From an uncultured Tateyamaria sp. (GTDB taxonomy: Bacteria > Pseudomonadota > Alphaproteobacteria > Rhodobacterales > Rhodobacteraceae), in contig NZ_CANKXW010000011.1 in the NCBI RefSeq assembly GCF_947487805.1, positions 1-64,000 of the forward strand: a stretch of DNA of 64,000 nt, in the 5' to 3' direction. The notes under the pieces were generated by a model that was not told the DNA's origin, ran no database searches, and saw only the letters and a list, made by a program, of their open reading frames with translations. Position numbers and translations under genes: made by a program. Positions 1,177 to 50,876 of this stretch are shown piece by piece. Numbering within the stretch: position 1 is the first letter of the stretch; each line of letters opens with the position of its first letter.

Positions 1177-1202
1177 GGAACAGCCTGCCGCGCCCGCGCG
1201 TT
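1177..1202 (+). promoter_or_regulatory. EcfG-type stress promoter (GGAAC-N17-CGTT)
   Basis: GGAAC lies at 1177-1181 and CGTT at 1199-1202 with a 17-base spacer. This is an exact match to the promoter recognised by the alphaproteobacterial general-stress sigma factor EcfG. It ends 31 bases before the ATG of the SDR gene at 1234. Confidence 0.75.
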
Positions 1203-1233
1203 CCTCTGATGAAATCACAGAGAAGTGGATGCG

Positions 1234-2220
1234 ATGGAACATCAAGGAAACGTGGCCGTGGTGGCCGGTGGTACGGCGGGTGTCGGTCTGGCGACGGTCG
1301 AGGCGTTGATCGGCGGAGGCTACCGGGTGGGCGTGCTTGCGCGCGGGGCCGAGCGACTGGCCGAGGTTGAAAACAGGTATGGCGAAGCCGTGCTGGCGCT
1401 GCAATGCGACGTGTCGGATGCCGATGCGGTGATGGAGGCGGCCCAAACAGTCAAAGGCGCATGGGGCCCGGTCGATGTGTGGGTCAATTGCGCGATGCTC
1501 ACCGCGTTCTCGACGTTTGACGACCTGTCTCCGCAGGAGTTCCAGGCCATCACCGACACCACCTATCATGGGCAGGTGTGGGGCACACGCGCGGCCCTGT
1601 CCGTGATGGAGCGGGGCAATATCGTCAACATTGGCTCTGGCCTGTCCTATCGGTCCGTCCCGTTGCAAAGCGCCTATTGCGGCGCGAAACATGCGATCAA
1701 CGGGTTCACCGGCGCGGTGCGGTCCGAGTTGATCGCCGCCGGCCGCCCGATCGAGGTGTCGTTGATCCAGTTGCCTGCGATCAACACGCCGCAATTCGAC
1801 TGGGCGCGCAGCCGTCTGGATCACCGCCCAATGCCCGCGCCACCCATCTACAACCCAGAGGTTGCGGCCACGGCCGTGATGAAGGCGATCCGGACAAACG
1901 CGCGCGAGCTTTACGTCGGCACGTCCGTCCTGCAACTGATTGCGGGCCAATTCGTGGCGCCGAATTTCCTCGATCATCAGATGGCCAGCAGCGGTGTGGA
2001 CGCGCAGGAAAGCGAGACGCCGCAGGACGGATTTCGCGCTGGCAATCTGGACGCACCTGCAGCTTACCCCGCTGATGCACGGGGCAGCTTTGACGGGCGT
2101 GCCGCGTCCACTGGCCTGATCGTCGATGCGGACCGGTTGCGCACAGGTGTCGCCGCGGTGGCGATGGCCGGGGCGGCGACACTGGGTGTCATGCTGGCGC
2201 GGCGCCTGCGCCGGTCATAG
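1234..2220 (+). CDS. SDR oxidoreductase with C-terminal membrane anchor
   Basis: A classical short-chain dehydrogenase of about 328 residues: the dinucleotide-binding GGTAGVG motif near the N-terminus, the NIGSG serine strand and the catalytic YCGAK motif are all present. Beyond the usual SDR length there is a linker and a hydrophobic C-terminal stretch ending in RRLRRS, which looks like a tail anchor with a positively charged cytoplasmic end. A GTG at 1225 is in frame, but AGAGAAG at 1218-1224 is correctly spaced only for the ATG at 1234. The substrate is unknown. It is preceded by an exact EcfG-type promoter, so stress induction is likely. Its stop abuts the stop of the convergent GH13 gene. 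Confidence 0.8.
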   Translation: MEHQGNVAVVAGGTAGVGLATVEALIGGGYRVGVLARGAERLAEVENRYGEAVLALQCDVSDADAVMEAAQTVKGAWGPVDVWVNCAMLTAFSTFDDLSPQEFQAITDTTYHGQVWGTRAALSVMERGNIVNIGSGLSYRSVPLQSAYCGAKHAINGFTGAVRSELIAAGRPIEVSLIQLPAINTPQFDWARSRLDHRPMPAPPIYNPEVAATAVMKAIRTNARELYVGTSVLQLIAGQFVAPNFLDHQMASSGVDAQESETPQDGFRAGNLDAPAAYPADARGSFDGRAASTGLIVDADRLRTGVAAVAMAGAATLGVMLARRLRRS

Positions 2221-3789
2221 CCGCCAGAACGCGGCGGACCGGGGCGGCAAGACCGTGTCGGTGCCGCCCTGTGCAGAGGTGAGATCCGGGACCGTGTCGG
2301 ATCCGGTTTTCACGTCCTCATGGCCAAAATTGAAGACAACACGGGCCGTCTGGTGGCGGATGGTCAGAACATCGCCATCGCGCTGCCATTCGGCATCGGG
2401 TAGCGACGCCAGATCCAGTTCGCGCCGCAGGGCAAAGACCTGCCGGGCGAAGGAGAGCACGCTGCCGCCGTCACTGTCTTGCGTCTCCACGTCGATCCCG
2501 TCCGCCCACCGCATCGGCAACCACGGCGTGCCGGTGGTAAATCCGTTGGCCTGCGCTCGCGACCACGGCAGGGGCACGCGTGCCCCTTCGCGGCCGGGAC
2601 CATCGGGCCAGAAGGCCAAATCGTAGGGATCGGTCGTATCATCCCTGCTTAGTTCAGGCTGGGGCAGGCCCAGTTCCTGCCCTTGATAGACCAGCGCCGG
2701 GCCCGGCATCAGGGCGAGGAACATCAACTGCAAGCGTGCTTCGGGATCGTCCGGGCGCTTGGGCTGGCGGGCGCGGTCATGGCTGCCGGTCCACCAGGCC
2801 AGCCGCATGGCCGCGGCCCGCCGCGCAATCAGGTCGGCGGCGACCTGCGCGGAAAAGCCGAATTGCGCCAAATCGACGACATAGCCGGCGTTCAGGCGAT
2901 CCCCGTCGGTGAAATCATTACACACCTCGACCGATTGGTTGCCGGTGCCGACCTCGCCCAGCAGATAGGCGGTCTCGCCCGCCCAGGCGCGAAGGTTATC
3001 GCAATAGGCGGCACCATCGCCGGGCAGAAAGTCGTGTTTGTGGTCCTGCCGGACGTAAGGCAGGAACGGCTCGCCATCCATCTTGTCCCGCACCTCGGGA
3101 GAGGCGGGTGGGTTGTCGCGAAATTCCGGATCGCACAGATAGGATGTGACCGCATCCAGACGGAAACCGTCCACGCCATTATCGGTCCAGAAGGCAAAGA
3201 TGCGCTGTACTTCGGCCTGCACGTTCGGGCAGCGCAGGTTCAGCGCCGGTTGCGCGGACATGTAATTGTGCAGGTAGTATTGCTGGCGACGATGATCCCA
3301 CGACCAGGACAGGTCTCCGAACCGGCCGATCCAGTTGGTGGGTGGCGCGCCATCCTCCTTGGCGTCACGCCAGACATAGTGATCGACGTAACCCGGGTCG
3401 CGCTGCGCGGATTTGTCGAACCACGGGTGCTGATCCGACGTGTGGTTGAGCACGAGGTCAATCATAACCTTCAGGCCACGATCATGCAGCGCTTCGGTCA
3501 GGGCGCTCCAGTCTTTCATGGTGCCCAGGGCGGGATGGATCGCGCAGTAATCGGTAACGTCATAGCCCCCATCGACCCAAGGTGACGGCATGAAGGGGCA
3601 GATCCAGACTGCGTCGACGCCGAGGTCGTGAAGATAGTCCGCCCGGCGCAGGATGCCGGGCAGATCACCGATACCGTCGCCGTCGCTGTCCTGAAAGGAG
3701 CGGGGGTAAAGCTCGTAAATAAGCGGGGCAAGGGGCCAGCCCGTGCCGGCCCCCGCGCGGGATTTATGCGCCAACGACCATACCGCCAT
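2215..3789 (-). CDS. GH13 alpha-glucosidase / alpha-amylase family protein
   Basis: A 524-residue glycoside hydrolase family 13 protein of the oligo-1,6-glucosidase/maltase type. It opens with IYELYPRSFQDSDGDGIGD, typical of alpha-glucosidases; DLVLNHTSDQHPWF is conserved region I, GFRLDAV holds the nucleophile Asp, LLGEVG the acid/base Glu, and GSHD the third acidic residue. There is no signal peptide, so it should act on cytosolic maltodextrin- or trehalose-type sugars. The frame stays open well upstream, but the family N-terminus and the ATG at 3789 fit; this start overlaps the preceding SDR gene by 26 bases. Its neighbours otsB-otsA make trehalose, so a role in compatible-solute or glycogen turnover is plausible. 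Confidence 0.85.
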   Translation of the reverse strand: MAVWSLAHKSRAGAGTGWPLAPLIYELYPRSFQDSDGDGIGDLPGILRRADYLHDLGVDAVWICPFMPSPWVDGGYDVTDYCAIHPALGTMKDWSALTEALHDRGLKVMIDLVLNHTSDQHPWFDKSAQRDPGYVDHYVWRDAKEDGAPPTNWIGRFGDLSWSWDHRRQQYYLHNYMSAQPALNLRCPNVQAEVQRIFAFWTDNGVDGFRLDAVTSYLCDPEFRDNPPASPEVRDKMDGEPFLPYVRQDHKHDFLPGDGAAYCDNLRAWAGETAYLLGEVGTGNQSVEVCNDFTDGDRLNAGYVVDLAQFGFSAQVAADLIARRAAAMRLAWWTGSHDRARQPKRPDDPEARLQLMFLALMPGPALVYQGQELGLPQPELSRDDTTDPYDLAFWPDGPGREGARVPLPWSRAQANGFTTGTPWLPMRWADGIDVETQDSDGGSVLSFARQVFALRRELDLASLPDAEWQRDGDVLTIRHQTARVVFNFGHEDVKTGSDTVPDLTSAQGGTDTVLPPRSAAFWRL

Positions 3790-4618
3790 TGGGGTGCAGA
3801 CATTGACCGGTGTAGTAATTGGCGTCGTCGCTGGCCAGGAACAGGAACGCGGTCGCGACTTCCCAAGGTTGACCGGCGCGGCCCATCGGTGTCTGCGATC
3901 CAAAATCCTCGACCTGTTCGGCGGGCATGGTGCCGGGAATGAACGGCGTCCAGATCGGGCCGGGGGCCACGGAATTGACGCGGATGCCCTTGTCCGCGAG
4001 GTTGGCGGCAAGGCTGCGGGTAAAGGCGAGCGATGCACCGCGCGTTGTGGAATAGGTGATCAGTGACCCCATCCCCGCAAAGGCGTTGACCGACGAGGTG
4101 TTGATGATCGCAGCACCTTTTTTCAGATGCGGCAGCGCGGCCTGCGTGCAGAAGAAATAGCTCATCACGTTGCTGTCGAACATCTGACGCAGCTTGTCTT
4201 CGTCCAGCTCGGTCAGATCGCTGTCGATCCATTGCTGGGCTGCGTTGTTGATCACGATGTCGAGCTTGCCGAAATGTTTGACCGTCTGTTCAATGGCGTC
4301 CGTTGCATGGGATTTCGACCCCAGGTCGCCCTCGATCAACAGCGCCTCGCCACCTTCGTCCTCGACCAGCTTTTTCGTCTGCTCGGCATCCTTGCTTTCG
4401 GACAAATAAGCGATGGCCACCTTGGCGCCTTCGCGCGCAAACAGGACCGCGACGGCGCGGCCGATGCCGCTGTCGCCGCCGGAGATGAACGCCACCTTGT
4501 CCGTCAGCTTGCCCGCGCCGGGATGGCGGGGGGCATAGTCGGGTGCGGGGTCCATCTCATGCTCGTGGGCGGGCATGCTGTCCTGGGATTGCGGGGGGAT
4601 TTTCACATGTTCGTTCAT
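3764..4618 (-). CDS. SDR oxidoreductase, stress-protein (YghA/YdaD-like) subgroup, with YxxxR active site
   Basis: A 284-residue SDR with the N-terminal extension typical of the YghA / B. subtilis general stress protein group, containing KVAFISGGDSGIG, INNAAQQ, INTSSVNAF and NSVAPGPIWTPFIP. The active-site segment reads YSTTRGAS: Tyr189 is kept but the lysine expected four residues on is Arg193 (codon CGC), where relatives have YSSTKGAI or similar. The catalytic lysine is close to invariant in active SDRs, so activity may be altered. An EcfG-type promoter lies upstream, divergent from otsBA. The GH13 gene follows with overlap, so the two should be cotranscribed. Confidence 0.85.
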   Translation of the reverse strand: MNEHVKIPPQSQDSMPAHEHEMDPAPDYAPRHPGAGKLTDKVAFISGGDSGIGRAVAVLFAREGAKVAIAYLSESKDAEQTKKLVEDEGGEALLIEGDLGSKSHATDAIEQTVKHFGKLDIVINNAAQQWIDSDLTELDEDKLRQMFDSNVMSYFFCTQAALPHLKKGAAIINTSSVNAFAGMGSLITYSTTRGASLAFTRSLAANLADKGIRVNSVAPGPIWTPFIPGTMPAEQVEDFGSQTPMGRAGQPWEVATAFLFLASDDANYYTGQCLHPNGGMVVGA

Positions 4619-4666
4619 TGTGGGCTCCGTTCTGGCTGCGCGCGGGATGTCCGGCGTTGCGGGGAC

Positions 4667-4692
4667 AACCCCGCCGCCGCGCTGATGGTTCC
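4667..4692 (-). promoter_or_regulatory. EcfG-type promoter for SDR-GH13 operon (GGAAC-N17-GGTT)
   Basis: Read on the minus strand, GGAAC (4692-4688) and GGTT (4670-4667) are separated by 17 bases, one base from the EcfG consensus in the -10 element. It ends 48 bases before the SDR start at 4618 and is back-to-back with the otsB promoter candidate. Confidence 0.6.
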
Positions 4693-4724
4693 AAGGCCCG
4701 TCCGAGAATTCTTGGCCGATCCGT

Positions 4725-4750
4725 GCAACCGAAACGCGATACGTGGCGTT
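4725..4750 (+). promoter_or_regulatory. Near-consensus EcfG-type promoter for otsBA (GCAAC-N17-CGTT)
   Basis: GCAAC at 4725-4729 differs by one base from GGAAC; CGTT at 4747-4750 is exact, spacer 17. The element ends 39 bases before the otsB start. Trehalose genes are well-known general-stress targets in alphaproteobacteria, which supports the reading. Confidence 0.5.
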
Positions 4751-4789
4751 GGTCTTTCGAGTGATGCTGCAAGTGCGAAGGGAACCCCG

Positions 4790-5569
4790 ATGTACTACGA
4801 GATGATCGGCTTTACTGCCGGAGAAAGAGCCGTTTTGCCCAAACCGCGATTTGAACCCAAAGACAACGTGGCCCTGTTTCTTGATTTCGACGGAAGCCTT
4901 GTTGATCTCGCGGCCGCACCTGACGCGATTGATGCGCGGGGCGTGTCTGAGCTGGTCGGCGCCCTGCACGGCGTTCTTGATGGCAGGCTGGCCATTGTTA
5001 CCGGGCGGTCTGTCAGTGACCTTTTGGGTCATGTTCCGGACCTGCCATGCCTGGTCTATGGCACCCACGGCGCCGAACTGCATGCAGAGGGTGAAACGAT
5101 CGATCTGGTGCCCGTCCCGGAGGCGCTGGACGCGATGTGCGAGGCCGCTGCGAAGTTCCGCCAACTGCATCCGGGCCTGCGGCTGGAACGCAAGCGGCAT
5201 GGATTTGTCCTGCACTACAGGCAAGCACCGGAGCTGGCCGCCGCGGTGACCGGATTTCTCGAGGCACTGGTGGATGTCGCGCCCGAGATGGTGTTGCAGC
5301 ACTCCAAGATGGCGGTGGAGGTGAAAGCCGCCGGCGTCTGCAAGGGCGCGGCCGTGCGCGATGCGATGGACCGGTTTGGCTGGACCGACCGCGTGCCGGT
5401 GATGGTGGGCGATGATGTCACGGATGAGGCTGGTATGGAGGCGGCGCAGACCTTGGGTGGATATGGCGTCAAGGTGGGGGAGGGTGAGACCACGGCCCGG
5501 TTCCGCTGCGACGATCCGCAGGACCTCAAGATGCAGCTGCGCCGGCTGGTGGAGCGTGCACATGGGTGA
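4790..5569 (+). CDS. otsB: Trehalose-6-phosphate phosphatase
   Basis: A 259-residue HAD-superfamily phosphatase that removes phosphate from trehalose 6-phosphate. Visible HAD motifs are LFLDFDGSLVD (nucleophile Asp32 and Asp34; Ser where Thr is more usual), IVTGRS (motif II) and MVGDDVTDEAGM (motif IV Mg-binding acids). The sugar-cap segment is present and length is normal for OtsB. The ATG at 4790 has GAAGGGA at good spacing. The gene overlaps otsA by 8 bases (ATGGGTGA), so the phosphatase and synthase are made together. The pathway yields trehalose, an osmo- and desiccation protectant. Confidence 0.93.
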   Translation: MYYEMIGFTAGERAVLPKPRFEPKDNVALFLDFDGSLVDLAAAPDAIDARGVSELVGALHGVLDGRLAIVTGRSVSDLLGHVPDLPCLVYGTHGAELHAEGETIDLVPVPEALDAMCEAAAKFRQLHPGLRLERKRHGFVLHYRQAPELAAAVTGFLEALVDVAPEMVLQHSKMAVEVKAAGVCKGAAVRDAMDRFGWTDRVPVMVGDDVTDEAGMEAAQTLGGYGVKVGEGETTARFRCDDPQDLKMQLRRLVERAHG

Positions 5570-6935
5570 GCGGCTGGTCGTTGTCTCAAACCGTGTCGCG
5601 GGCGACCGACCGCCTGCGGGCGGGCTGGTCTTTGCCCTGCATGACTGTCTGACACAGATGGGCGGCATCTGGGTCGGCAGCGGTGCCGATCTGGTCGAAG
5701 CACCTGCGCCCGCCCTGCGCCATGCACCGGCAGACGGATACGACCGCTATTTGCTGGACCTGACCGAGGACGAACAGGCGCAGTTCTACCTCGGCTATTC
5801 CAATTCCGTCCTCTGGCCGCTGTGCCATGGCCGGACCGACCTGATGCAGATCAAACGCGGGCAATATGCGGGATACCGCGCCGTGAATGCGCGGATGGCC
5901 GACCAGATGCTGGACGTGCTGGACCCCGATGACCTGATCTGGATCCATGACTATCATTTCCTGCCGCTGGCAGAAGAATTGCGCCGACGCGGTGTGACCA
6001 ACCGCATCGGGTTTTTCCTGCACATTCCTTTCCCCGCAGGTCACGATATCGGGGCGCTGTCGCAAAGTGACGCGCTGATGGAATGGCTGGGCGCCTATGA
6101 CCTGATCGGGCTGCAATCGGAGCGGGACGTGGCGCAGTTCATCGGCACCTCGCGCCAGCATCCGGGGACGGAGATCCTCATGGACGGACGGGTGCGTATG
6201 GGAAATCGTCTGGTGGCGGTGCGGGCCTGTCCGATCGGAATCGACGTCGCGGCTTTCCAGGGCGAAATCGGCACAGGTGAGGCCGTGACCCTGAGCAAGG
6301 GCGAAAAGTTGATCGTGGGGGTGGACCGGCTGGATTATTCCAAGGGCCTGCCGCAGCGGTTTGACGCGATGGAGCACTTTCTTGACACGCGTACAGACGC
6401 TGACCCTACGGCGACATTCCTGCAAGTGGCCCCGATCAGCCGGGGCGAGGTTGCGGCCTATCAGGATATTCGGCAGACGCTGGAGCAAAAGGCGGGGGCG
6501 ATCAACGGCGCACACGGCACGCCGAACTGGATGCCGATCCGCTATATCTCGCAATCCATGGATCGGGCTGAATTGGCGGGCGTCTTTCGCCAAAGTGCCG
6601 TCGGTCTCGTCACGCCGCTGATTGACGGGATGAACCTCGTGGCCAAGGAATACGTCGCTGCACAGGATCCGGACGATCCCGGCGTGCTGGTGCTGTCACG
6701 GCTGGCGGGCGCGGCAGAGCAGATGACGGACGCGTTACAGGTCAATCCCTATGATCCGACCGATATGGGCGAGGCGATCCGCACTGCGCTGGCCATGCCG
6801 CTGGACGAGCGCAAGGCCCGCCACGCCCGCCTTCTGACCGGTGCCGTGCATGAAGACATCCATTGGTGGACCAGAACCTATCTGGATCAGTTGCGCCAAG
6901 TGCGCGCGGTGCCGGTTTTTCCGCTATCTGCCTGA
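5562..6935 (+). CDS. otsA: Trehalose-6-phosphate synthase
   Basis: A 457-residue GT20 glycosyltransferase joining UDP-glucose and glucose 6-phosphate. The N-terminus LVVVSNRV, the PPAGGLVFAL glucosyl-binding loop, IWIHDYHFLPLAEELR, GFFLHIPFP, VDRLDYSKGLPQRF and the late DGMNLVAKEYVAAQ segment are all characteristic. The true start is the ATG at 5562 that overlaps the otsB stop; the frame is open further upstream but only as an artefact of otsB. GalU encoded about 9 kb away supplies the UDP-glucose substrate, and both appear to lie under stress-type promoters. Confidence 0.95.
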   Translation: MGERLVVVSNRVAGDRPPAGGLVFALHDCLTQMGGIWVGSGADLVEAPAPALRHAPADGYDRYLLDLTEDEQAQFYLGYSNSVLWPLCHGRTDLMQIKRGQYAGYRAVNARMADQMLDVLDPDDLIWIHDYHFLPLAEELRRRGVTNRIGFFLHIPFPAGHDIGALSQSDALMEWLGAYDLIGLQSERDVAQFIGTSRQHPGTEILMDGRVRMGNRLVAVRACPIGIDVAAFQGEIGTGEAVTLSKGEKLIVGVDRLDYSKGLPQRFDAMEHFLDTRTDADPTATFLQVAPISRGEVAAYQDIRQTLEQKAGAINGAHGTPNWMPIRYISQSMDRAELAGVFRQSAVGLVTPLIDGMNLVAKEYVAAQDPDDPGVLVLSRLAGAAEQMTDALQVNPYDPTDMGEAIRTALAMPLDERKARHARLLTGAVHEDIHWWTRTYLDQLRQVRAVPVFPLSA

Positions 6936-6953
6936 GTTCACGCGCCCGTCTAC

Positions 6954-6979
6954 GGAACATCGCGCTGGGCCTGCGCGTT
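6954..6979 (+). promoter_or_regulatory. EcfG-type promoter for terB-like gene (GGAAC-N17-CGTT)
   Basis: GGAAC at 6954-6958 and CGTT at 6976-6979, spacer 17, an exact match. It sits in the 80-base gap after otsA and ends 36 bases before the next ATG. Confidence 0.75.
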
Positions 6980-7015
6980 TCCTTTCCAAGGATTTTAATC
7001 ATTGGAGGATACAGG

Positions 7016-7771
7016 ATGTCACTGAAACGCATGGTCACGAAACTCGCGCTTGCCTTTGCGGCCAAGAAGGGGATGGAAGCGTTCAAAACTGTCGGCGGTA
7101 TCGATGGTGTCAAGCAGATGCTATCGGGCAATCGGCCTGTCGGGTCCGCTGCTGCGATGGGGCAAAGGGGTGAAACCCACGGCCATGGCCGTGTGGGCGG
7201 CGTCCGCACATCGGATGCCGGCGGTCTGGGGAGCCTGCTTGATGGTCTGGGTTACGGCGGCGCATCAGACGGGCGCGAGGCCGGAGTGACCGGTCAGATG
7301 GCATCGGGCACACCATCGCTGGGTGGGCTCCTTGGCGGCCTTGCCGCTGCGATCGGCGGGCAGCCAAAGGCGCCGCAGACGCGCCACGCGATGGAGGATC
7401 ATCTGGCCGACGACAACATCAAGACCGACCGGGACGCCAAATCCGTCCTGCGCGCCATGGTCCATATGGCCCGTGCTGACGGTGGCGTTCAAGATGACGA
7501 ATATGCAGCTCTGATGGAGATTCTCGACGACGCGTCCGACGAAGAGCGTGAGGTCCTGCGCCAGTCGATGCAGGAACCGGTCGACGCGCAAAGTGTTGCC
7601 GCAGAGACGCCGATCCACGCCCGCAAGGAGGTCTATTCCGCGGCGCTGCTGGTCGGTGAGCCGGACAAGCCCGCGGAAAAGACGTTTCTACGCAATCTCG
7701 CGGCGCATCTGGGTCTGGATGATACCGATGTGCGGCACCTGCATATGGCGATGGGCAAGCCCGTCATCTGA
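7016..7771 (+). CDS. TerB-like / DUF533 protein (YebE type)
   Basis: A 251-residue protein with a helical N-terminus (MSLKRMVTKLALAFAAKKGME), a Gly/His-rich linker around residues 50-110, and a C-terminal all-helical domain beginning near residue 125 with LADDNIKTDRDAKSVLRAM. The segment ARADGGVQDDEYAALM and the end GLDDTDVRHLH fit the DUF533/TerB fold of E. coli YebE. Function is unknown; homologues are often stress-induced envelope proteins. The start at 7016 has TTGGAGGA upstream. An exact EcfG-type promoter precedes it and a strong terminator follows. Confidence 0.75.
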   Translation: MSLKRMVTKLALAFAAKKGMEAFKTVGGIDGVKQMLSGNRPVGSAAAMGQRGETHGHGRVGGVRTSDAGGLGSLLDGLGYGGASDGREAGVTGQMASGTPSLGGLLGGLAAAIGGQPKAPQTRHAMEDHLADDNIKTDRDAKSVLRAMVHMARADGGVQDDEYAALMEILDDASDEEREVLRQSMQEPVDAQSVAAETPIHARKEVYSAALLVGEPDKPAEKTFLRNLAAHLGLDDTDVRHLHMAMGKPVI

Positions 7772-7792
7772 CGGCAACCCGTACATCGCACA

Positions 7793-7824
7793 CGCACCGT
7801 CCCCTAGCAGGGGCGGTGCGTTTT
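7793..7824 (+). terminator. Intrinsic terminator after terB-like gene
   Basis: CGCACCG pairs with CGGTGCG and CCCC with GGGG around a 5-base loop (one bulged T), followed by TTTT. It overlaps the stop codon of the convergent hydrolase gene. Confidence 0.75.
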
Positions 7825-9407: not shown

Positions 9408-9434
9408 GTCATTGTCCTTTCAGTAATGTGCGCG

Positions 9435-10745: not shown

Positions 10746-10776
10746 GGCGGCTGGCCCCTTGCTGCGTCACAGGGCA

Positions 10777-10801
10777 AACCCGCGACATCAGGTTATGTTC
10801 C
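10777..10801 (-). promoter_or_regulatory. EcfG-like promoter (GGAAC-N16-GGTT)
   Basis: On the minus strand GGAAC (10801-10797) and GGTT (10780-10777) are separated by 16 bases. It ends 31 bases before the flavoprotein start. The spacing and -10 each differ slightly from the best sites in this region. Confidence 0.5.
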
Positions 10802-10866
10802 GCACTGCTGAAGCAACAAAAGTTAATGCAACAGATGCCAGTTCGGGATTGTGGTCGGCGATGCGA

Positions 10867-10881
10867 GAACATAATGTGAAC
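10867..10881 (+). promoter_or_regulatory. LexA (SOS) box GAAC-N7-GAAC
   Basis: GAAC at 10867-10870 and GAAC at 10878-10881 with exactly 7 bases between match the direct-repeat LexA operator known from Rhodobacter and other alphaproteobacteria (GTTCN7GTTC on the other strand). It ends 2 bases before the ATG of the radical-SAM DNA-repair gene, so bound LexA would block its expression. Confidence 0.75.
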
Positions 10882-10883
10882 AT

Positions 10884-12119
10884 ATGGGTATTCGCACCGT
10901 TCAGGAAAAGCTCGCCATTCTCAGTGATGCGGCAAAATATGACGCCTCTTGCGCGTCCTCGGCCACGACCAAGCGGAACGCTCTGGGCGGCAAGGGGCTG
11001 GGGTCAACCGAAAGCGGCGGCATCTGCCATGCCTATGCGCCTGACGGGCGGTGCATCAGCCTGCTCAAGATCCTGATGACGAATTTCTGCATATACGATT
11101 GCAGCTATTGCGTGAACCGGGTGTCGTCGAACGTGGACCGCGCGCGTTTCTCGGTCGACGAAGTCGTTTCGCTGACCATCGAGTTCTATCGCCGAAACTA
11201 TATCGAGGGGCTGTTTCTGTCCTCGGGCATCATCCGCTCGCCCGATGACACCATGCTGGACATGGTGCGGATCGTGCGCAAGCTGCGCCACGAGGAACGG
11301 TTTCAGGGATACATCCATCTCAAGACGATCCCCGATGCAGCGCCCGAATTGATCGAAGAGGCGGGGCGGCTGGCGGACCGTCTGTCGATTAATGTCGAAC
11401 TGCCGACGGACCGTGCCGTGGCCACCTATGCGCCCGAGAAGAAGCCCGGCCAGATCCGCGAAGTCATGGGCCGGATCCGCGCGCGCAAGCAGGCCGGGCA
11501 GGACCGGTCGCACACCGGAAAACGGCCGCCGAAATTCGCGCCCGCCGGGCAGTCGACGCAGATGATCATCGGGGCGGACGGGTCCAACGATGCCACCGTG
11601 CTGGGACAATCCACCCGGCTCTATTCCAGCTACAGGCTCAAGCGCGTCTATTACTCGGCCTTTTCGCCCATTCCGGATGCGTCGTCGAAACTGCCCCTGA
11701 TCCGGCCCCCGTTACAGCGCGAACACCGGCTGTACCAGGCCGACTGGCTGTTGCGGTTCTACGGGTTCGAGCTGGACGAGATCACGGGCGTAACACCGGA
11801 TGGGAACCTCGATCTCGACATAGACCCGAAACTGGCCTGGGCATTGGAACATCGCGGGCTGTTTCCGCTGGATGTGAACCGCGCCAGCAAGGAGTTGCTG
11901 CTGCGCGTGCCGGGCTTTGGGGTCAAGACGGTGCAACGTATCCTCAGCACGCGGGGCAACCGGACGCTGCGCTACGAGGACCTGACGCGTATGGGCGCGT
12001 CGTTGAAGAAGGCACGGGCGTTCATCACTGCGGTGGGCTGGACACCCGGCGCCCTGACTGACAGCGCGGGCCTGCGCGCCCGCTTTGCGCCGCCGCCGGA
12101 ACAGTTGAGCCTGTTGTGA
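10884..12119 (+). CDS. Radical-SAM protein linked to UdgX (putative DNA modification/repair)
   Basis: A 411-residue radical-SAM protein. CIYDCSYC (Cys69, Cys73, Cys76) is the CxxxCxxC ligand set for the 4Fe-4S cluster that cleaves S-adenosylmethionine. The C-terminal part has a helix-hairpin-helix DNA-binding segment, VNRASKELLLRVPGFGVKTV. This architecture belongs to the family that is nearly always encoded beside a UdgX-type uracil-DNA-binding protein, as here; the exact reaction is not known. Its stop overlaps the start of the next gene. The ATG has no clear Shine-Dalgarno and lies against a LexA box, so the transcript may be nearly leaderless. Confidence 0.88.
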   Translation: MGIRTVQEKLAILSDAAKYDASCASSATTKRNALGGKGLGSTESGGICHAYAPDGRCISLLKILMTNFCIYDCSYCVNRVSSNVDRARFSVDEVVSLTIEFYRRNYIEGLFLSSGIIRSPDDTMLDMVRIVRKLRHEERFQGYIHLKTIPDAAPELIEEAGRLADRLSINVELPTDRAVATYAPEKKPGQIREVMGRIRARKQAGQDRSHTGKRPPKFAPAGQSTQMIIGADGSNDATVLGQSTRLYSSYRLKRVYYSAFSPIPDASSKLPLIRPPLQREHRLYQADWLLRFYGFELDEITGVTPDGNLDLDIDPKLAWALEHRGLFPLDVNRASKELLLRVPGFGVKTVQRILSTRGNRTLRYEDLTRMGASLKKARAFITAVGWTPGALTDSAGLRARFAPPPEQLSLL

Positions 12120-13534
12120 GACACGCGGCGCAGATGCCGCGGATCGGAACGGCACAGGCCTGGCGCGACGCTGCGCGCGGGCTGCTGGCACAAGGGGTGC
12201 CGCCGCAGGATGTGGACTGGACCGTCGAAGGCGCGCCGCAAGGTTTATTTGGCGGAGCACCCGTTGCAACGCAGGCGGTGCCCGTCAACGTCCCGCGCAG
12301 TTTTCTGGCCCTTGCGCAGTCCGTCGTTTGGCATAGCGACCCGCAACGGTTTGCCCATCTCTATGCCGTCTTGTGGCGCCTGCGCGACGCCCCACGGCTC
12401 ATGCAGGACCGTGCCGACCCGGAGGTGGCGCGGCTGCGGCGTATGGAAAAGGCGGTGCACCGGTGCCAGCACAAGATGAAGGCCTTTGTCCGCTTTCGCG
12501 AAGTACCGGCGCTGAACCCGGCCCGGCGCAATTTCATGGCGTGGTTCGAGCCCACGCATCATACGATCGAACCCACCGCTGAATTCTTTCGCAAACGCTA
12601 TGCCGATATGGATTGGTCCATCGTGTCGCCGGACATCACGGCGCGCTGTATGGACGGTCAGGTCACGTTCCTGCGAGATGTGCCGCGCCCGGATCTGCCC
12701 GAGGATGCGCACGAAGACCTGTGGATGACCTACTATAGCAACATCTTCAACCCGGCGCGTCTGAAGGTGAATGCGATGACGTCGGAAATGCCCCGGAAAT
12801 ACTGGAAGAACCTGCCCGAGGCGGCGGTCATCCCGGACCTGATCGCGCAGGCAGAGGCGCGCGCGAACGCGATGGCGCAGGCCACGCCAACCTTGCCTCC
12901 CGTGCGGGTCGAAGCCGCACAGCGCCAGCAACAGGCCTTTGCCTCGCGCTGGGCGTCAACCGGGGCCATGCTCGAACAGGATCTGCGCGGCTGCGCCCGC
13001 TGCGCCATCGGGTGTGCTGCGACGCAGGTGGTGCCGGGCGAGGGGCCGGTGGACAGCCCGGTGATGATCGTGGGCGAACAGCCGGGCGATCAGGAGGATC
13101 TGGAGGGGCGGCCTTTTGTCGGCCCGGCGGGGCAGGTGTTCGACAGGGCGGCGACCGAGGCGGGGCTGGACCGCGCCGCCTGCTACATCACCAACGCCGT
13201 CAAACACTTCAAATACAGGACAGAGCGGAAGCGGCGCATTCACGAGCGGCCCGACCGCAGCGAGATCGAGGCCTGCCGCTGGTGGCTGAACGCAGAGATT
13301 GAACGGTCGCGGCCCGCGCTGATCGTGGCGATGGGGGCGGTCGCAGCGCAGGCGTTGACCGGGTCGGGCAAGGACCTGCTGCGGCGCTGCGGCACGATCG
13401 AGGAAACGCGCGGCACGCCGGTTCTGATCACTGTGCATCCGTCCTTTGTACTGCGCTGCGGGGACGTGGCCGCGCAGCAGGACGCGCGGCGCATGCTGAC
13501 GCGGGATCTGCGGCGGGCGGCCCGGTATCTATGA
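12116..13534 (+). CDS. udgX: UdgX-family uracil-DNA binding protein fused to DUF4130 domain
   Basis: A 472-residue two-domain protein. Residues about 1-275 form the DUF4130-type domain found linked to radical-SAM proteins (FMAWFEPTHHTIEPTAEFF, YYSNIFNPARL). Residues about 285-472 are a UdgX domain: VGEQPGDQEDLEGRPFVGPAG is the family motif 1, KRRIHERP carries His376 corresponding to the His that makes a covalent bond with uracil-containing DNA in mycobacterial UdgX, and VHPSFVLR is the last motif. Known UdgX proteins remove uracil and stay crosslinked to the abasic site. The GTG at 12116 overlaps the upstream stop; an ATG at 12134 is an alternative. Both genes should be SOS-controlled. Confidence 0.9.
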   Translation: MRHAAQMPRIGTAQAWRDAARGLLAQGVPPQDVDWTVEGAPQGLFGGAPVATQAVPVNVPRSFLALAQSVVWHSDPQRFAHLYAVLWRLRDAPRLMQDRADPEVARLRRMEKAVHRCQHKMKAFVRFREVPALNPARRNFMAWFEPTHHTIEPTAEFFRKRYADMDWSIVSPDITARCMDGQVTFLRDVPRPDLPEDAHEDLWMTYYSNIFNPARLKVNAMTSEMPRKYWKNLPEAAVIPDLIAQAEARANAMAQATPTLPPVRVEAAQRQQQAFASRWASTGAMLEQDLRGCARCAIGCAATQVVPGEGPVDSPVMIVGEQPGDQEDLEGRPFVGPAGQVFDRAATEAGLDRAACYITNAVKHFKYRTERKRRIHERPDRSEIEACRWWLNAEIERSRPALIVAMGAVAAQALTGSGKDLLRRCGTIEETRGTPVLITVHPSFVLRCGDVAAQQDARRMLTRDLRRAARYL

Positions 13535-13561
13535 CCGATGGCCACCGCCGGGGCGTGCACG

Positions 13562-13587
13562 AAAAAGGGGGCGCCGCAAGCGCCCCC
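13562..13587 (-). terminator. Intrinsic terminator of the PRC-barrel gene
   Basis: GGGGGCGC (13567-13574) pairs with GCGCCCCC (13580-13587) around a 5-base loop; on the minus strand the stem is followed by TTTTT. There is no T-run on the plus strand, so it serves the minus-strand gene. Confidence 0.8.
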
Positions 13588-13612
13588 TCTGCATCGCTGT
13601 TGATGCACTGGG

Positions 13613-14698
13613 TCAGTCGAGGCCGACCGCTTCGGCCAGACGCATGTTCTCGCCCATGATCTCGACCTCGGCTTCGTTGAATTCCGGCATGTTCTCCAGA
13701 CGCTCCTCGGTATAGCCGGGCACGATCACTTCGTTGCGCGCCATGACCAGTTGGGTCAGCGGGATGGCGACTTCGTTTTCGCCCATGCCAAGGAAACCGC
13801 CGACGCCGATGATTGCGACCAGCTTGTCACCGCGCTTGCCGATAAAGTCGATCTCGCCCACGTCCTCACCGGACTCCGTGGCCACGCTGCGCCCGATCAG
13901 CTCGTCGCGGTCCATGTTGAAGATGGGCAGGTCTGCAACCGTTTCCTGATAGCGTGCGCGGTCCGCGTCCGGCATGTTGCCTTTTTCGTCCATGTTGAAG
14001 TCCTCAAGCACAACGCGCGCCTGCCGCTGGTCGATCTCGATTTGCGCTGCCTCCGCCGCGGTCACATTGACCTGTGCATCGGTCTCGGCTTCCAGAACTT
14101 CGACATTGGCCGTCTGCGACTGTTCGACATTTACAACCGGGTCCGCTTGCTCGAGGGTGACGTTGGCCTCTTGGGTTCTTTCCATGTTGATCACCGGCTC
14201 GGCATTCTCGACGGTCACGCGCGGCTCTGCTTCTTCGATGGTGATGCGGGGTTCGGGGCGGACGAAACGCACGACCGGTTCGGGCTGTTCGAGATCAATG
14301 ACCGGCTCGCCTGTGGCCACGTCCACTTCGGGCTGCGGCACCTGAATGGTGACGATCGGCTCGGGGATGCGGACGGTGACTTGCGGTTGCGCCTGTTCGA
14401 TGGTGATGATCGGTGCCTGCTGTTGCACGGTCACGGTCGGTTCCGGCACGGACACGGTGATCTCGGGCTGGGGTTGTTCCACGGTGACGACAGGCGCGGC
14501 TTGCGTCACGTTCACTTCGGGTTCGGGGATAGTGACGTCGACGGTCGCGTCCTGCTGTTCGACCACAACCTGTCCGCCCAACACGTCCGCCTGAATGTCA
14601 TTGGCCGTACCGGCCTGCTGTGCTGTTGCGGCACCGGCGACCAGAAGGGACGCGACCGACACGCCGGAAAGGAGGGAGTAGGGGTTCGATTTCATCAT
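13613..14698 (-). CDS. Exported PRC-barrel protein with long 9-residue beta-repeat
   Basis: A 361-residue protein with a signal peptide (residues 1 to about 26, ending AGAATAQ), a repeat region from about residue 60 to 205, and a C-terminal PRC-barrel domain starting near DELIGRSVATESGEDVGEIDFIG. The repeat unit is Pro-x-Val-Thr-Val plus four residues, as in PVVTVEQPQ and PQVTVRIPE. It is rich in Pro, Glu, Gln and beta-branched residues. The start with TGAGGAT 8 bases upstream is the ATG at 14698; the frame is open further but lacks a signal peptide there. PRC barrels bind partner proteins or RNA; the role of this exported form is unknown. Confidence 0.75.
   Translation of the reverse strand: MMKSNPYSLLSGVSVASLLVAGAATAQQAGTANDIQADVLGGQVVVEQQDATVDVTIPEPEVNVTQAAPVVTVEQPQPEITVSVPEPTVTVQQQAPIITIEQAQPQVTVRIPEPIVTIQVPQPEVDVATGEPVIDLEQPEPVVRFVRPEPRITIEEAEPRVTVENAEPVINMERTQEANVTLEQADPVVNVEQSQTANVEVLEAETDAQVNVTAAEAAQIEIDQRQARVVLEDFNMDEKGNMPDADRARYQETVADLPIFNMDRDELIGRSVATESGEDVGEIDFIGKRGDKLVAIIGVGGFLGMGENEVAIPLTQLVMARNEVIVPGYTEERLENMPEFNEAEVEIMGENMRLAEAVGLD
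14084..14521 (-). repeat. 27-base / 9-residue tandem repeat in PRC-barrel gene
   Basis: About fifteen successive units encode Pro-x-(Val/Ile)-(Thr/Asp/Asn)-(Val/Ile/Leu)-x-x-x-x. Units are strictly 9 residues for the first twelve or so, then drift to 10. Repetition is clear at protein level and degenerate in DNA. A beta-solenoid or extended beta structure is likely. Confidence 0.8.
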
Positions 14699-14888
14699 GT
14701 TCTTGATCCTCATTGAAGTTGGGGGTGCCAGCGTCGCAGGCCGCGATGTTTGGCGTTCCATGTTCAATCAAGCCTTTGAAAGCATTGAAGTTCCGGGCGG
14801 TTTGCTTAACAAAAATCAAGTGGAACAAACCAAGGGCAAAGGGGTTTGTCCCGATGGGTCACAGGCACCCGCCGCCACTGCCGGTCAC

Positions 14889-14925
14889 AAAAAGGGCGGC
14901 ACCACCCCGCTGGGGGCAGGCCGCC
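14889..14925 (-). terminator. Intrinsic terminator of yihY-like gene
   Basis: GGCGGC (14895-14900) pairs with GCCGCC (14920-14925), with a smaller CCCC/GGGG hairpin inside the loop; on the minus strand it is followed by CTTTTT. It lies 35 bases beyond the yihY-like stop. Confidence 0.65.
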
Positions 14926-14959
14926 TTTGCATTGGTGTGTTTTTTGTCAGGGCGGGCGC

Positions 14960-15904
14960 TCAGACGCGGGCGGCACCCAGTTCATCCGCCTTTTCAGCGT
15001 CGCGGTGACCCATGGGCAAATCGCGCCCCTGGGTGGTGTCCCGGCGCGTCTGCGCCTCCATCTCTGCATTCAGTTCGGCACCGATCAGGATGACAAAGAC
15101 CGACATCCACAGCCAGGTCAGCAGGATGACGACACCTGCCAGCGCGCCAAAGCTTTCGTTGTAGCTGCCGAACGAGCTGACATAGAAGGCAAAGCCCGCG
15201 GACGCGATCAACCACAGGGCGCATCCGACAATGCCGCCTGCCGACACCCACGACCATTCAGCGCCGTCGCGGCTTGGCCCATATCGGTACAGCACCGCCA
15301 GACCGCCAATGGTGAAGGCCGCAAGCACGACAAAGGACACGCCCACGATCAGTGGTTCGGCCAAGGCACCGAGGGGCAGGAACGACACAACCGCAGGGAT
15401 CACGGCCACCACCGCCATCGCAAGCAGAAGTCCGACCATGATCAGCAAGGTCAGCCCGAAGGTGACGAGCTTGAGCTTGATGAAACCCCGTTCCTCCGTT
15501 TCGTCATAGGCCACGTTGAGCCCGTCAATGAGGCTGCCCACCCCCTTGGACGCGGAATAGAGCGCGAGCAGGACGGAAATCAGGGCCGTCACCCCAAGCC
15601 CGCCCTCGGAGGATCCGGTCACGGCGGTGGCCTGGCCCACAATGATGTCGATGATGTCCTCGGGCACCAGGCCCGCAAGCGCGCCGATTTGATCCGTCAC
15701 ATCCGATGGGTCGAGAAACAGGCCCGACAGCGCCATCAGCGCCGCGATGGCGGGAAACAAGGCGAGGAATCCGTAGAATGCGACACCGGCGGCAATCAGG
15801 CTGACCCGGTCTTCGGCGACCTCGTCCTTGACGCGCCACAGGATATCTTTCCATCCCTTGGCCGGGATTTGCGTGGGAACGTCTGCGTTGCGGCCTCTGG
15901 ACAT
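14960..15904 (-). CDS. YihY/BrkB-family inner-membrane protein
   Basis: A 314-residue polytopic membrane protein. SLIAAGVAFYGFLALFPAIAAL, LISVLLALYSASKGVGSLI and the late LTWLWMSVFVILIGAELNAEME are hallmarks of the YihY/BrkB (UPF0761) family, with about six membrane helices. The function of the family is not settled. The C-terminal tail is charged and cytoplasmic. GGAGG lies 7 bases before the ATG. An exact EcfG-type promoter precedes it, divergent from galU. Confidence 0.85.
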   Translation of the reverse strand: MSRGRNADVPTQIPAKGWKDILWRVKDEVAEDRVSLIAAGVAFYGFLALFPAIAALMALSGLFLDPSDVTDQIGALAGLVPEDIIDIIVGQATAVTGSSEGGLGVTALISVLLALYSASKGVGSLIDGLNVAYDETEERGFIKLKLVTFGLTLLIMVGLLLAMAVVAVIPAVVSFLPLGALAEPLIVGVSFVVLAAFTIGGLAVLYRYGPSRDGAEWSWVSAGGIVGCALWLIASAGFAFYVSSFGSYNESFGALAGVVILLTWLWMSVFVILIGAELNAEMEAQTRRDTTQGRDLPMGHRDAEKADELGAARV

Positions 15905-15938
15905 CTGGCGCCTCCGGTTTTTGCCATCCTAAAAATGC

Positions 15939-15964
15939 AACGTTCGGCGGTGCGGCATGGTTCC
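15939..15964 (-). promoter_or_regulatory. EcfG-type promoter for yihY-like gene (GGAAC-N17-CGTT)
   Basis: On the minus strand GGAAC (15964-15960) and CGTT (15942-15939) are 17 bases apart, an exact match ending 34 bases before the start codon. Confidence 0.75.
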
Positions 15965-16029
15965 GTTGGCCCACGCCATTCTGCGTTGCAGACGACTGGC
16001 ACCTTTGCCGCACTGCGGCAACTTGTGCC

Positions 16030-16055
16030 GGAACCAAATCGTGTGACAGCCGGTT
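16030..16055 (+). promoter_or_regulatory. EcfG-type promoter for galU (GGAAC-N17-GGTT)
   Basis: GGAAC at 16030-16034 and GGTT at 16052-16055 with a 17-base spacer, 61 bases before galU. It is back-to-back with the yihY-side promoter in the 212-base divergent gap, which holds nothing else I can name. Confidence 0.6.
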
Positions 16056-16116
16056 CCCTTTGCGACAGGCGCGTGCCCACCCCGCCTGGTATTCCTAGAG
16101 CAGAAAGGATCACCTG

Positions 16117-17013
16117 ATGGATATTTCGACCGTTGTGCTGCCCGTGGCGGGTCAGGGAACCCGGCTGTTGCCGTTGACCAAGGCAACGCCAAAGGAACTG
16201 ATGCCGGTGTTCGACCGGCCTGTTCTGCAACTTGCGGTCGACGAAGCCATCGATGCAGGCGCGCGACGTTTGGTCGTCATCACCCATGAGAGCAAACCCG
16301 CCATTCAAGAATTTCTGACCGAAAGCCCGAGCCTCGTGCGGGATCTGCGATCCAAGGGCAAGGATGATTTGGCCGAAGTGCTCGACGCCTCCACGGCGGA
16401 CCGCTGGTGCGAGGTCATCTTTGTTGAACAGCCCGAACCGCTGGGGCTCGGCCATGCGGTTGGTCTGGCGCGCGACTATATCGACGAGGCCGCGTTTGGC
16501 GTGATCCTGCCCGATGACTGCATACTGGGCGACGGTTGCCTGACCGAAATGGCAAGCGCCTACCGGGGTGGTCACATGATCGCGGCCATGGACGTCGCGG
16601 ACAAGGATGTGAGCAAATACGGCATCTTTCGCCCAGTAGCGGGCGACACCGGCCCGTCGATCCGCTCTGCCGGGCTGGTCGAGAAACCCGACCTTGCCGA
16701 TGCGCCCTCGAACCTGGCCGCAGTTGGCCGCTATATCCTGTCGCGCACAATCTTCGAACGGCTGGCCGATCAGGACCCCGGGGCGGGCAATGAAATCCAG
16801 CTGACCGATGCGATCGACCGGGACCTGCAAGACCAACCACTCTATGCGTTCCGGTTCAGCGGGACACGGTTCGACTGCGGCACCAAGGACGGGTTGCTGG
16901 CCGCCGGTCAGGCGCGCCAGGCGGCTTTGCAGGACATTCAGCCCGCCCGCCAGCACGCAGGACCAAATGGCATGTTGTCCGGCATTATCAAGGATTTCCA
17001 GGTCGGCGCGTAA
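16117..17013 (+). CDS. galU: UTP-glucose-1-phosphate uridylyltransferase
   Basis: A 298-residue nucleotidyltransferase making UDP-glucose from UTP and glucose 1-phosphate. LPVAGQGTRLLPLTKATPKELMPV is the nucleotide-binding/catalytic signature (here split by me as the N-terminal GxGTR motif plus KxxPKEL), followed by PLGLGHAVG, LPDDCILG, VEKPD and GTRFDCGTKDG, all diagnostic. GAAAGGA lies 8 bases before the ATG. Its product feeds OtsA and polysaccharide synthesis, which fits its place among stress-type promoters. Confidence 0.95.
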   Translation: MDISTVVLPVAGQGTRLLPLTKATPKELMPVFDRPVLQLAVDEAIDAGARRLVVITHESKPAIQEFLTESPSLVRDLRSKGKDDLAEVLDASTADRWCEVIFVEQPEPLGLGHAVGLARDYIDEAAFGVILPDDCILGDGCLTEMASAYRGGHMIAAMDVADKDVSKYGIFRPVAGDTGPSIRSAGLVEKPDLADAPSNLAAVGRYILSRTIFERLADQDPGAGNEIQLTDAIDRDLQDQPLYAFRFSGTRFDCGTKDGLLAAGQARQAALQDIQPARQHAGPNGMLSGIIKDFQVGA

Positions 17014-17025
17014 CGCGCCCGCCTC

Positions 17026-17775
17026 TTACAATTCAGCGTCGGAGTTGGGAAGGTAGAGATAGGCGGGGTCGAAATCGCCCCGCCTGTGCAGGCGCGCCCG
17101 GTCCATGATCGTCAGCTGACCGCTGGCAATGGCGCAGCACCCGTCCTCGCGCAGGTCCCTTAGAACCCGGTTCACATGCACGGGCGTCAGTCCGGTGGCA
17201 TCGGCGATGTCGGTCTGCGTGATTCCGATCGTATATGTGTCCTGCTGCTGGCCGAGTGCGGCAGCAAGCCGCGCGTCGATCTCGGAAAAGAAATTCGCAA
17301 CACGGGCAAATCCACGCATGGAACTGTTCCGCATCGCCCAGTGACGGTGAATGGACGCATCCACCAGCGTCAGCGACCACAACATCCGCGAAAGTTCGAT
17401 ATCGCCATCGAGTAGCTGTTTGAGGGCCGCATGCTGGATGACCGCCACCGTCGCCGCAGTGACGGCCACGACATCGTGGTCCAGCTGTTTCAGCGGAAAA
17501 GCGTGCAGATCAACGAAATCGCCCTTGAATTGCAAGGCCACGAATGTGCTGTGCTGCATGTTGGCCCTCGGGATGCTGCGCGCCACCACGCCGTCCAGCA
17601 ACAACAGGCTGTGATCTAGGGTCGCACCACGCCTGCTGATTACGGTGTTGGCCGCATATGTGTGGCGCTCTGCAAAAAGGGGGCCAAGCGCATTCCAATG
17701 GTGCGGAGACACGTGTTCAATCATTCCCTTGCGTTTCAGATCGGATGGCGCGGGATGGCCGGCGTCGGGCGTCAT
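17026..17775 (-). CDS. Crp/Fnr-family transcriptional regulator
   Basis: A 249-residue regulator with an N-terminal cyclic-nucleotide-binding-type beta-roll (about 20-140), a dimerisation helix, and a C-terminal winged helix with the recognition segment ITQTDIADATGLTPVHVNRVLRDL (about 190-215). There is no N-terminal cysteine cluster, so it is not an oxygen-sensing FNR, and the ligand is unknown. It converges on galU with only 12 bases between stops. An exact EcfG-type promoter lies 51 bases upstream, so it may be a second-tier regulator of the stress response. Confidence 0.82.
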   Translation of the reverse strand: MTPDAGHPAPSDLKRKGMIEHVSPHHWNALGPLFAERHTYAANTVISRRGATLDHSLLLLDGVVARSIPRANMQHSTFVALQFKGDFVDLHAFPLKQLDHDVVAVTAATVAVIQHAALKQLLDGDIELSRMLWSLTLVDASIHRHWAMRNSSMRGFARVANFFSEIDARLAAALGQQQDTYTIGITQTDIADATGLTPVHVNRVLRDLREDGCCAIASGQLTIMDRARLHRRGDFDPAYLYLPNSDAEL

Positions 17776-17826
17776 CTGTCAGTACCTCTTGAACCTGAAC
17801 CGGGACTGGTCCGGTGACATGGCAGG

Positions 17827-17852
17827 AACGGCTGAACCGGGTCGGTGGTTCC
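17827..17852 (-). promoter_or_regulatory. EcfG-type promoter for Crp/Fnr gene (GGAAC-N17-CGTT)
   Basis: On the minus strand GGAAC (17852-17848) and CGTT (17830-17827) are 17 bases apart, an exact match in the 270-base divergent gap. Confidence 0.75.
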
Positions 17853-17983
17853 GCGCGGCCCGCGCGGTCTCAGCTGACCATGGCAGCAGACAATCCATCG
17901 CCCGACTGCGCCAGATAGACGGGCGGGGCCGAAAAACACAATCTTATCAAATGTTAAGCGGCCCACTTTTTCGACCGTTCCGA

Positions 17984-18009
17984 TGAACAATGGCGCCGGT
18001 CCCGGCGTT
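17984..18009 (+). promoter_or_regulatory. Near-consensus EcfG-type promoter (TGAAC-N17-CGTT)
   Basis: TGAAC at 17984-17988 is one base off GGAAC; CGTT at 18006-18009 is exact and the spacer is 17. It ends 36 bases before the DUF2383 gene. Confidence 0.5.
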
Positions 18010-44343: not shown

Positions 44344-44427
44344 GCCCGCGGGCTGCAGTTTCAGAACGGCCCTTCGGGGAGAGTTTATTTGGCAAGATGA
44401 TACGGGGGATCCGTCCCTTGTGGTGTG

Positions 44428-44455
44428 GGCAGTCCTGAAATGGGGCTGCCTTTTT
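44428..44455 (+). terminator. Terminator-like hairpin between g2 and g3
   Basis: GGCAGTCC (44428-44435) pairs with GGGCTGCC (44443-44450, one G-T pair) around a 7-base loop and is followed by TTTTTCG. It lies inside the GTA operon in the 167-base gap between terminase and portal genes. Confidence 0.65.
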
Positions 44456-44510
44456 CGTTGGTATGGACGGGGCCGGGCGGCCCTTGGGATCACGGATAGG
44501 AGACCCGAGA

Positions 44511-45686: not shown

Positions 45687-45690
45687 GGCC

Positions 45691-45915: not shown

Positions 45916-45929
45916 AAAGGAGACAACAG

Positions 45930-46493: not shown

Positions 46494-46531
46494 CGCGCAC
46501 GCCATTTCAACCCACCATCAAGGACATGCTT

Positions 46532-50855: not shown

Positions 50856-50876
50856 GACTTTAGGGGAGCTAAAGAT

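Follow-up and report, generated by a model that had tools for sequence, protein, structure and literature searches.

The promoter of the general stress sigma factor EcfG has been published as GGAAC-N16-CGTT (PMC3892343, PMC7083833), and the Sphingomonas motif, GGAAC-N17-20-GTT, covers longer spacers (PMC6599016). In Sphingopyxis, GCAAC and GGAAC are the two commonest -35 boxes of EcfG promoters and the -10 boxes are flexible (PMC7083833). In Bradyrhizobium, EcfG controls the otsBA pathway of trehalose synthesis (PMC8092242), the targets in Sphingomonas include Crp-like, glycosidase, topoisomerase IB and PRC-barrel genes (PMC6599016), and Rhizobium etli carries a second, plasmid-borne EcfG (PMC3892343). 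Here, nine EcfG-type sites are described in the first 18.5 kb of a 64,000-nucleotide stretch from an uncultured Tateyamaria sp. of the roseobacter group (assembly GCF_947487805.1, contig NZ_CANKXW010000011.1, positions 1 to 64,000; hereafter the window). From their sequence and genomic context, these sites are very probably canonical EcfG promoters, and EcfG-dependent expression of the genes behind them is predicted. The promoter type and its regulators are already well known; less expected is that targets and regulators cluster together, both chromosomally and on a plasmid. A literature search for EcfG or PhyR in genomic islands gave one paper at most, none of the papers on PhyR in roseobacters concerned such clusters judging by title, and those listed for NepR made no mention of Roseobacter; subscription papers were mostly outside the scope of that search.

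Nine EcfG-type sites and the genes behind them

A sequence-only reading of the window had listed nine sites, all 31-61 bases before a start codon and in the right direction, as EcfG-type promoters of a general-stress island. All nine were recovered on recomputing, with the same distances, measured from the end of the -10 element to the start codon, and every site faces its gene. Four are exact matches to GGAAC-N17-CGTT. The first, at 1177..1202 on the plus strand, lies 31 bp upstream of the ATG at 1234 of a short-chain dehydrogenase/reductase (SDR) gene (SDR1, 1234-2220; SDR by Pfam/NCBIfam); this start was re-read by eye, and the gene finder's own choice gives 49 bp instead. The others precede a DUF533/TerB-like gene (6954..6979, plus strand, 36 bp upstream of 7016-7771), a BrkB/YihY-type gene (15939..15964, minus strand, 34 bp upstream of 15904-14960) and a Crp/Fnr-family gene (17827..17852, minus strand, 51 bp upstream of 17775-17026).

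Three further sites combine an intact GGAAC with a GGTT -10 element. On the minus strand, the site at 4667..4692 (N17) lies 48 bp upstream of an SDR2-GH13 (glycoside hydrolase family 13) gene pair (4618-3764, 3774-2215), and that at 10777..10801 (N16) lies 31 bp upstream of flavoprotein-SDR3-hydrolase genes (10745-9435, 9407-8625, 8625-7804). The third, at 16030..16055 on the plus strand (N17), stands 61 bp upstream of a second galU (16117-17013). The last two sites, both on the plus strand, carry one changed -35 base: GCAAC-N17-CGTT at 4725..4750, 39 bp upstream of otsBA (4790-5569, 5562-6935), and the weaker TGAAC-N17-CGTT at 17984..18009, 36 bp upstream of a DUF2383/PA2169-family gene (18046-18483). 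The sites at 16030 and 17827 overlap an opposite-strand match, since GGAACC...GGTTCC is self-complementary, and their orientation therefore rests on the distance to the start. Three more matches in the window are probably due to chance: 9667 (minus strand) within a gene, 14822 (plus strand) with no gene in range and 31254 (plus strand) within the trigger-factor gene.

Enrichment of sites before gene starts

For a quantitative comparison, a start was scored as positive when GGAAC-N16/17-CGTT, with at most one mismatch, had its -10 element ending 15-75 bp upstream, and the count covered starts preceded by 50 bp or more of free DNA. Gene starts came from a codon-usage gene finder and single starts may be off. 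Seventeen 20-kb stretches of this genome (340 kb in total) served as control DNA. Between 1 and 18.5 kb of the window, 9/11 starts have a site (4 exact, 5 with one mismatch), against 1/187 in the controls (Fisher exact P = 5e-13) and 0/24 in the rest of the window, 18.5-64 kb (P = 8e-7). The earlier reading had found no sites in the gaps from 18.5 to 42 kb. It had also proposed a comparison of site density with other DNA, and an equal density before other starts was looked for and not seen. Besides, the window contains 12 matches to GGAACN{16,17}SGTT against a shuffle mean of 2.2, and 12 were reached in 0/100 shuffles.

The string itself is not enriched. Over the whole genome there are 79 exact CGTT matches and 120 matches to the reversed pattern, which is what could be said for regarding the sites as compositional accidents of GC-rich DNA. 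However, 45 of the 79 exact matches fall within genes and 34 are intergenic, and 24 of these 34 are followed, 20-63 bp downstream, by a same-strand start called by the gene finder; hence, it is the position before a start that discriminates. The near absence of sites at control starts, together with the conservation across genera and the paralogue control described below, leaves the compositional explanation with next to no probability. Three sites added by eye, including one just 7 bp ahead of its called start, bring the promoter-like exact sites to 27 genome-wide, 4 of which are in the window.

Sigma factor locus and probable genome-wide regulon

The genome encodes the expected regulators. 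phyR, ecfG and an HWE-type kinase gene form one locus near 218 kb of contig C6, the window being on contig C11; evidence for adjacency of the two contigs was looked for and not found. The PhyR protein matches PF22029 (87.9 bits), PF22233 and PF00072, and reaches 345.9 bits for the NCBIfam PhyR family (cut-off 240). The ECF (extracytoplasmic function) sigma factor encoded beside it has 183 aa and is 78% identical to the phyR-adjacent sigma factor of plasmid pDSHI02 of Dinoroseobacter shibae. The kinase gene after ecfG is of the HisKA_2/HWE type (PF07568, 76.8 bits; PF07536, 32.5 bits). A 57-aa frame between phyR and ecfG is NepR-like by eye only and has no NCBIfam match; D. shibae has an annotated NepR at the corresponding place. 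A suspected RepA-I-type plasmid nature of C6 found no support, nor did Pfam support a DUF883 label given by eye to two small proteins.

Elsewhere in the genome, exact sites precede csbD, DUF1328, Hva1-TUDOR, DUF892, SpoIIAA-like, PRC-barrel, DUF7218, topoisomerase IB, Pmp3 and formate/nitrite transporter genes. Apart from topoisomerase IB and PRC-barrel, these genes are linked to stress as a matter of general background.

Among genus members, a strong PhyR match (E below 1e-20) was seen in 13/20, the remainder being weak at best, so that the general stress system, as judged from sequence, looks patchy within one genus. Two stretches from members with no clear PhyR had a site at 0/13 starts each. 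One of these seven remaining genomes, G011, was not used as a negative because its contig C133 has an EcfG-like gene, at the contig end, and a related cluster.

A different ECF sigma factor that reads an AAC-type -35 element, for example one of the RpoE/ChrR type, could in principle use these sites. Indeed, the genome encodes further ECF-like proteins (weaker matches at C3 and C2), and an AAC core is general in ECF -35 boxes (PMC7083833). Against this stand the published EcfG motif, with the longer spacer of the present sites falling within the Sphingomonas range of N17-20 (PMC3892343, PMC7083833, PMC6599016), the 17 phyR-locus stretches, every one of which holds an exact site or more, and the distribution of two genes with sites, stress-type BrkB (8 genomes) and topoisomerase IB (6), which are confined to genus members with a strong PhyR match. 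Another ECF sigma factor is thus a very unlikely owner of these promoters.

Conservation of the sites and paralogue controls

Recognition by EcfG is also in line with the conservation of the sites. A Pseudooctadecabacter locus (L089) has the gene order of the window, namely GH13, SDR2, otsB, otsA, DUF533, hydrolase, SDR3, flavoprotein, radical-SAM (radSAM) and UdgX, and all four comparable EcfG-type promoters keep their site. The site before SDR2 ends in TGTT there, the one before DUF533 is exact, and those before otsB (GCAAC) and the flavoprotein gene (N16-GGTT) have the same form as in the window. In three intergenic alignments between the two loci, the boxes match while the spacers and flanks mostly diverge. 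All genomes of the genus that hold SDR2 (5/5, the window's own copy included) have a site before it with no more than one mismatch, and the flavoprotein gene has a GGTT site also in G003 and G015 (N17), two other species of the genus.

A further control comes from paralogues. Stress-type BrkB genes, the window's own copy included, have a site in 6/8 copies (5 of them exact); for the housekeeping paralogue of BrkB the count is 0/20 loci. Likewise, the other galU of the genome (C4:148759, 45% identical to the window galU) has no site, giving a tally of 1/1 versus 0/1. Among the galU orthologues listed, 4/5 have a site with at most one mismatch, the miss being L092. In four Jannaschia loci (L092, L094, L107, L108), galU is the gene immediately ahead of otsBA, which suggests that it may supply UDP-glucose for trehalose synthesis. 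Topoisomerase IB has a site in 6/6 genus genomes. For DUF2383, an exact site lies 89 bp before the L108 copy and none was found before the L107 copy.

Several observations weigh against the assignment to EcfG. The counting rule was framed after the sites of the earlier reading were known, though the controls were scored with the same rule; the window count alone is thus partly circular. Raw motif counts in 20 genus members do not clearly separate PhyR-bearing from PhyR-free genomes. The genome's own phyR has only a one-mismatch site (GGAAC-N17-CATT), and exact sites also precede several other genes without any evident connection to stress. Two stress-type BrkB copies (L216 and L221) lack a site, and for topoisomerase IB the distance to the projected start is as short as 7-13 bp at five of the six sites, so that either the starts are uncertain or the spacing is off. 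Finally, the PhyR of Rhodobacter sphaeroides has no major general-stress role (PMC5830050). The sigma-factor, conservation and paralogue evidence is independent of the window count, and the proposal of EcfG-type promoters with a probable shared regulon gains strong support from the phyR, ecfG and kinase genes, the sites before stress-type genes elsewhere and the conservation at orthologues.

Clustering and possible mobility

The grouping of sites was examined with the 27 promoter-like exact sites. Four of them lie within 16.7 kb in the window (P about 1.3e-3 when corrected by multiplication with the window number). Contig C6 holds two more groups, five sites in 4 kb and three in 7.5 kb around phyR-ecfG. 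Together these two C6 groups make up the 8/27 sites found in groups of at least three per 10 kb, a criterion that excludes the window's four; the random mean is 0.15, and 8 was reached in 0/5000 trials.

Two of the 11 starts in the cluster have no EcfG site, those of a radical-SAM operon (10884, plus strand) and of a PRC-barrel gene (14698, minus strand). The former, a radSAM-UdgX DNA-repair operon (10884-12119, 12116-13534), is preceded by a LexA-type box, GAAC-N7-GAAC, at 10867..10881 on the plus strand. This spacing presumably corresponds to the LexA motif of Alphaproteobacteria. The box begins 17 bp before the radSAM start in the window (17-18 bp across the window and the orthologues) and is kept before 5/5 radSAM orthologues (L089, L092, L094, L107, L108); the 340 kb of control DNA contains seven such strings in either orientation. 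The operon inside the cluster is thus under predicted LexA-type control and the cluster is not purely EcfG. The term general-stress island is supported in the sense of clustering. The radSAM-UdgX pair also adjoins galU-otsBA in the four Jannaschia loci. The PRC-barrel gene (13613-14698) has a visibly repetitive middle.

No mark of mobility was found for the cluster in this genome: its GC content shows no shift (0.635 versus 0.628 in controls), no RPA-type plasmid replication gene was found in the genome, and the window has no tRNA; integrases had no systematic search. The left border of the window is a contig end. Horizontal transfer of the segment to or from Pseudooctadecabacter was considered, as radSAM and SDR2 are 92-94% and 90-91% identical, but in the same pair trigger factor is 77% and otsB 50% identical.

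Longer clusters occur in relatives. In G003, 23/50 starts between 300 and 380 kb have a site (next 20 kb, 0/9), and the sites span about 61 kb. The cluster is shared with G015, in which 73/80 predicted proteins of the G003 block match with order kept, flanks included. The block has its own phyR, HWE-type kinase and NepR-like genes, and relatives of the window's SDR1, GH13, SDR2, SDR3, flavoprotein and BrkB genes. Just before its kinase gene, a diverged ecfG-like frame was noticed by eye (L170, about 8772 to at least 9320), which PF22029 does not report; it may represent a second EcfG that is either decaying or specialised. At about 10 kb from the edge of the G003/G015 cluster lies a tRNA-Phe, which was judged no proof of insertion because the intervening genes are common to both species; as the two clusters share their flanks, insertion is not demonstrated for them either.

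Searching with the G003 PhyR protein yielded 34 plasmid records, including Dinoroseobacter shibae, Roseobacter ponti, R. litoralis, Gemmobacter and Ketogulonicigenium. On the plasmid or chromid pDSHI02 of D. shibae (NC_009956.1; L262, L263, L265), phyR-nepR-ecfG-kinase-PLD stand close to dps, and other parts of the replicon encode SDR1-SDR2-GH13 and SDR3 as well as symporters, an oxidase and Pmp3, among others; 33/80 predicted proteins of the G003 block have a match on it (40% identity, 60% coverage). Between 103 and 153 kb of this plasmid, 14/23 starts have a site. Poorer stretches were the rest of pDSHI02 (3/20 and 1/25), R. ponti (5/27), S2214 (4/31, none exact) and Salipiger (2/26). About 150 of the 153 kb of pDSHI02 gave no match (E <= 1e-10) to the window's otsB, DUF533, flavoprotein, BrkB, galU, Crp or DUF2383.

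Published data suggest a link of the plasmid locus to stress. Dshi_3834-3836 are stress-induced genes of D. shibae (PMC4373377) and, from gene order, appear to be the kinase, EcfG and NepR genes of pDSHI02; the terms "PhyR" and "general stress" are absent from the accessible main text of that paper. It also reports a general loss of transcription under starvation for most extrachromosomal genes, the down-regulated ones being mostly on the 191-kb and 153-kb replicons, which speaks against an easy reading of the plasmid cluster.

The promoters may be real and their physical cluster incidental, with conserved stress and sugar neighbourhoods that happen to adjoin rather than a unit gained or inherited together. 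The unshifted GC content, the LexA-type operon, the contig end at the left border and the flanks shared by the G003 and G015 clusters fit such an origin, as do the occurrence of SDR2, GH13 and the flavoprotein gene in other orders elsewhere and the restriction of SDR2 (E <= 1e-60) to 5/20 genus members. The grouping of exact sites in the window and on C6, the site-rich blocks of G003 and pDSHI02, and the GH13-to-UdgX order kept in Pseudooctadecabacter argue the other way. Incidental adjacency is a serious candidate that falls a little short of an even chance. The clustering of the sites is real, and mobility as a unit is suggested, not proven.

Predicted function of the regulon

If the nine sites are EcfG promoters, their activation can be outlined by analogy with published systems. 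Stress would lead, through the HWE-type kinase, to phosphorylation of PhyR, which would then bind NepR and free EcfG, the components being those assigned from sequence. Freed EcfG would direct RNA polymerase to GGAAC-N16/17-(C/G)GTT and would switch on trehalose synthesis by otsBA, with UDP-glucose supplied by the second galU. It would also activate the SDR-GH13 unit, the further SDR, the flavoprotein-SDR-hydrolase unit and the DUF533 protein, as well as the BrkB membrane protein, the Crp/Fnr regulator and the DUF2383 four-helix protein. The window genes would represent a locally dense part of a regulon that extends across the genome and has some 27 exact promoters or more, part of the gene set standing in some relatives in longer clusters with their own regulators and, in D. 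shibae, on a plasmid.

More tentatively, with a probability that we place somewhat below one half, the roseobacter general stress response may be a transferable physical module in which phyR-nepR-ecfG-kinase go together with tens of target operons, many of these having an EcfG promoter to themselves. Such a module would pass between plasmids and chromosomes and be broken up and put together again. The window would then be one chromosomal fragment of it.

A probable regulon can be assigned in this way to nine units, among them several whose function is unknown (DUF533, DUF2383 and the SDR-GH13 unit), in a bacterial order in which no major part in general stress was seen for the one PhyR that has been studied (PMC5830050). 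For the stress-induced sigma-kinase locus of the D. shibae plasmid, a canonical EcfG system is suggested, and the question can therefore be put to a direct test in a marine strain that is in culture.

Other features of the window

A gene transfer agent (GTA)-like cluster occupies 42928-56771 (terminase, portal, prohead protease, capsid, tail tube and GTA TIM-barrel protein) with a serine acetyltransferase gene after it. A CheB-CheR-PAS fusion and a separate response regulator are encoded at 23898-27191, some 5 kb away from the stress cluster. Next to the G003 cluster (L169:8952-12899), a protein that resembles the fusion by eye is likewise accompanied by a response regulator.

Comparison with known EcfG systems

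The window's genome shares with the EcfG regulons of R. etli, Sphingopyxis granuli, Sphingomonas melonis and Bradyrhizobium the promoter type, the GCAAC and flexible -10 variants, otsBA (Bradyrhizobium), target types such as Crp-like, glycosidase, topoisomerase IB and PRC-barrel genes (Sphingomonas) and the phyR-ecfG locus (PMC3892343, PMC7083833, PMC6599016, PMC8092242). Unlike those regulons, the present one belongs to the roseobacter group and has nine promoters within 17 kb; clustered target units are not discussed in the accessible sections of these papers. In R. sphaeroides (RSP_1272-1274), as here, ecfG and nepR-like genes stand beside phyR on the opposite strand, and a Crp/Fnr gene is nearby (PMC5830050). 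The two differ in that no major general-stress role was assigned there to PhyR, whereas a set of canonical target promoters is predicted here. pDSHI02 has in common with the window's genome the regulator locus, with EcfG 78% identical and with PLD and a nearby dps, and also SDR1, SDR2, GH13, SDR3 and other shared genes; in contrast, its set is extrachromosomal, and its match to otsA is only 29% identical and annotated as ggpS.

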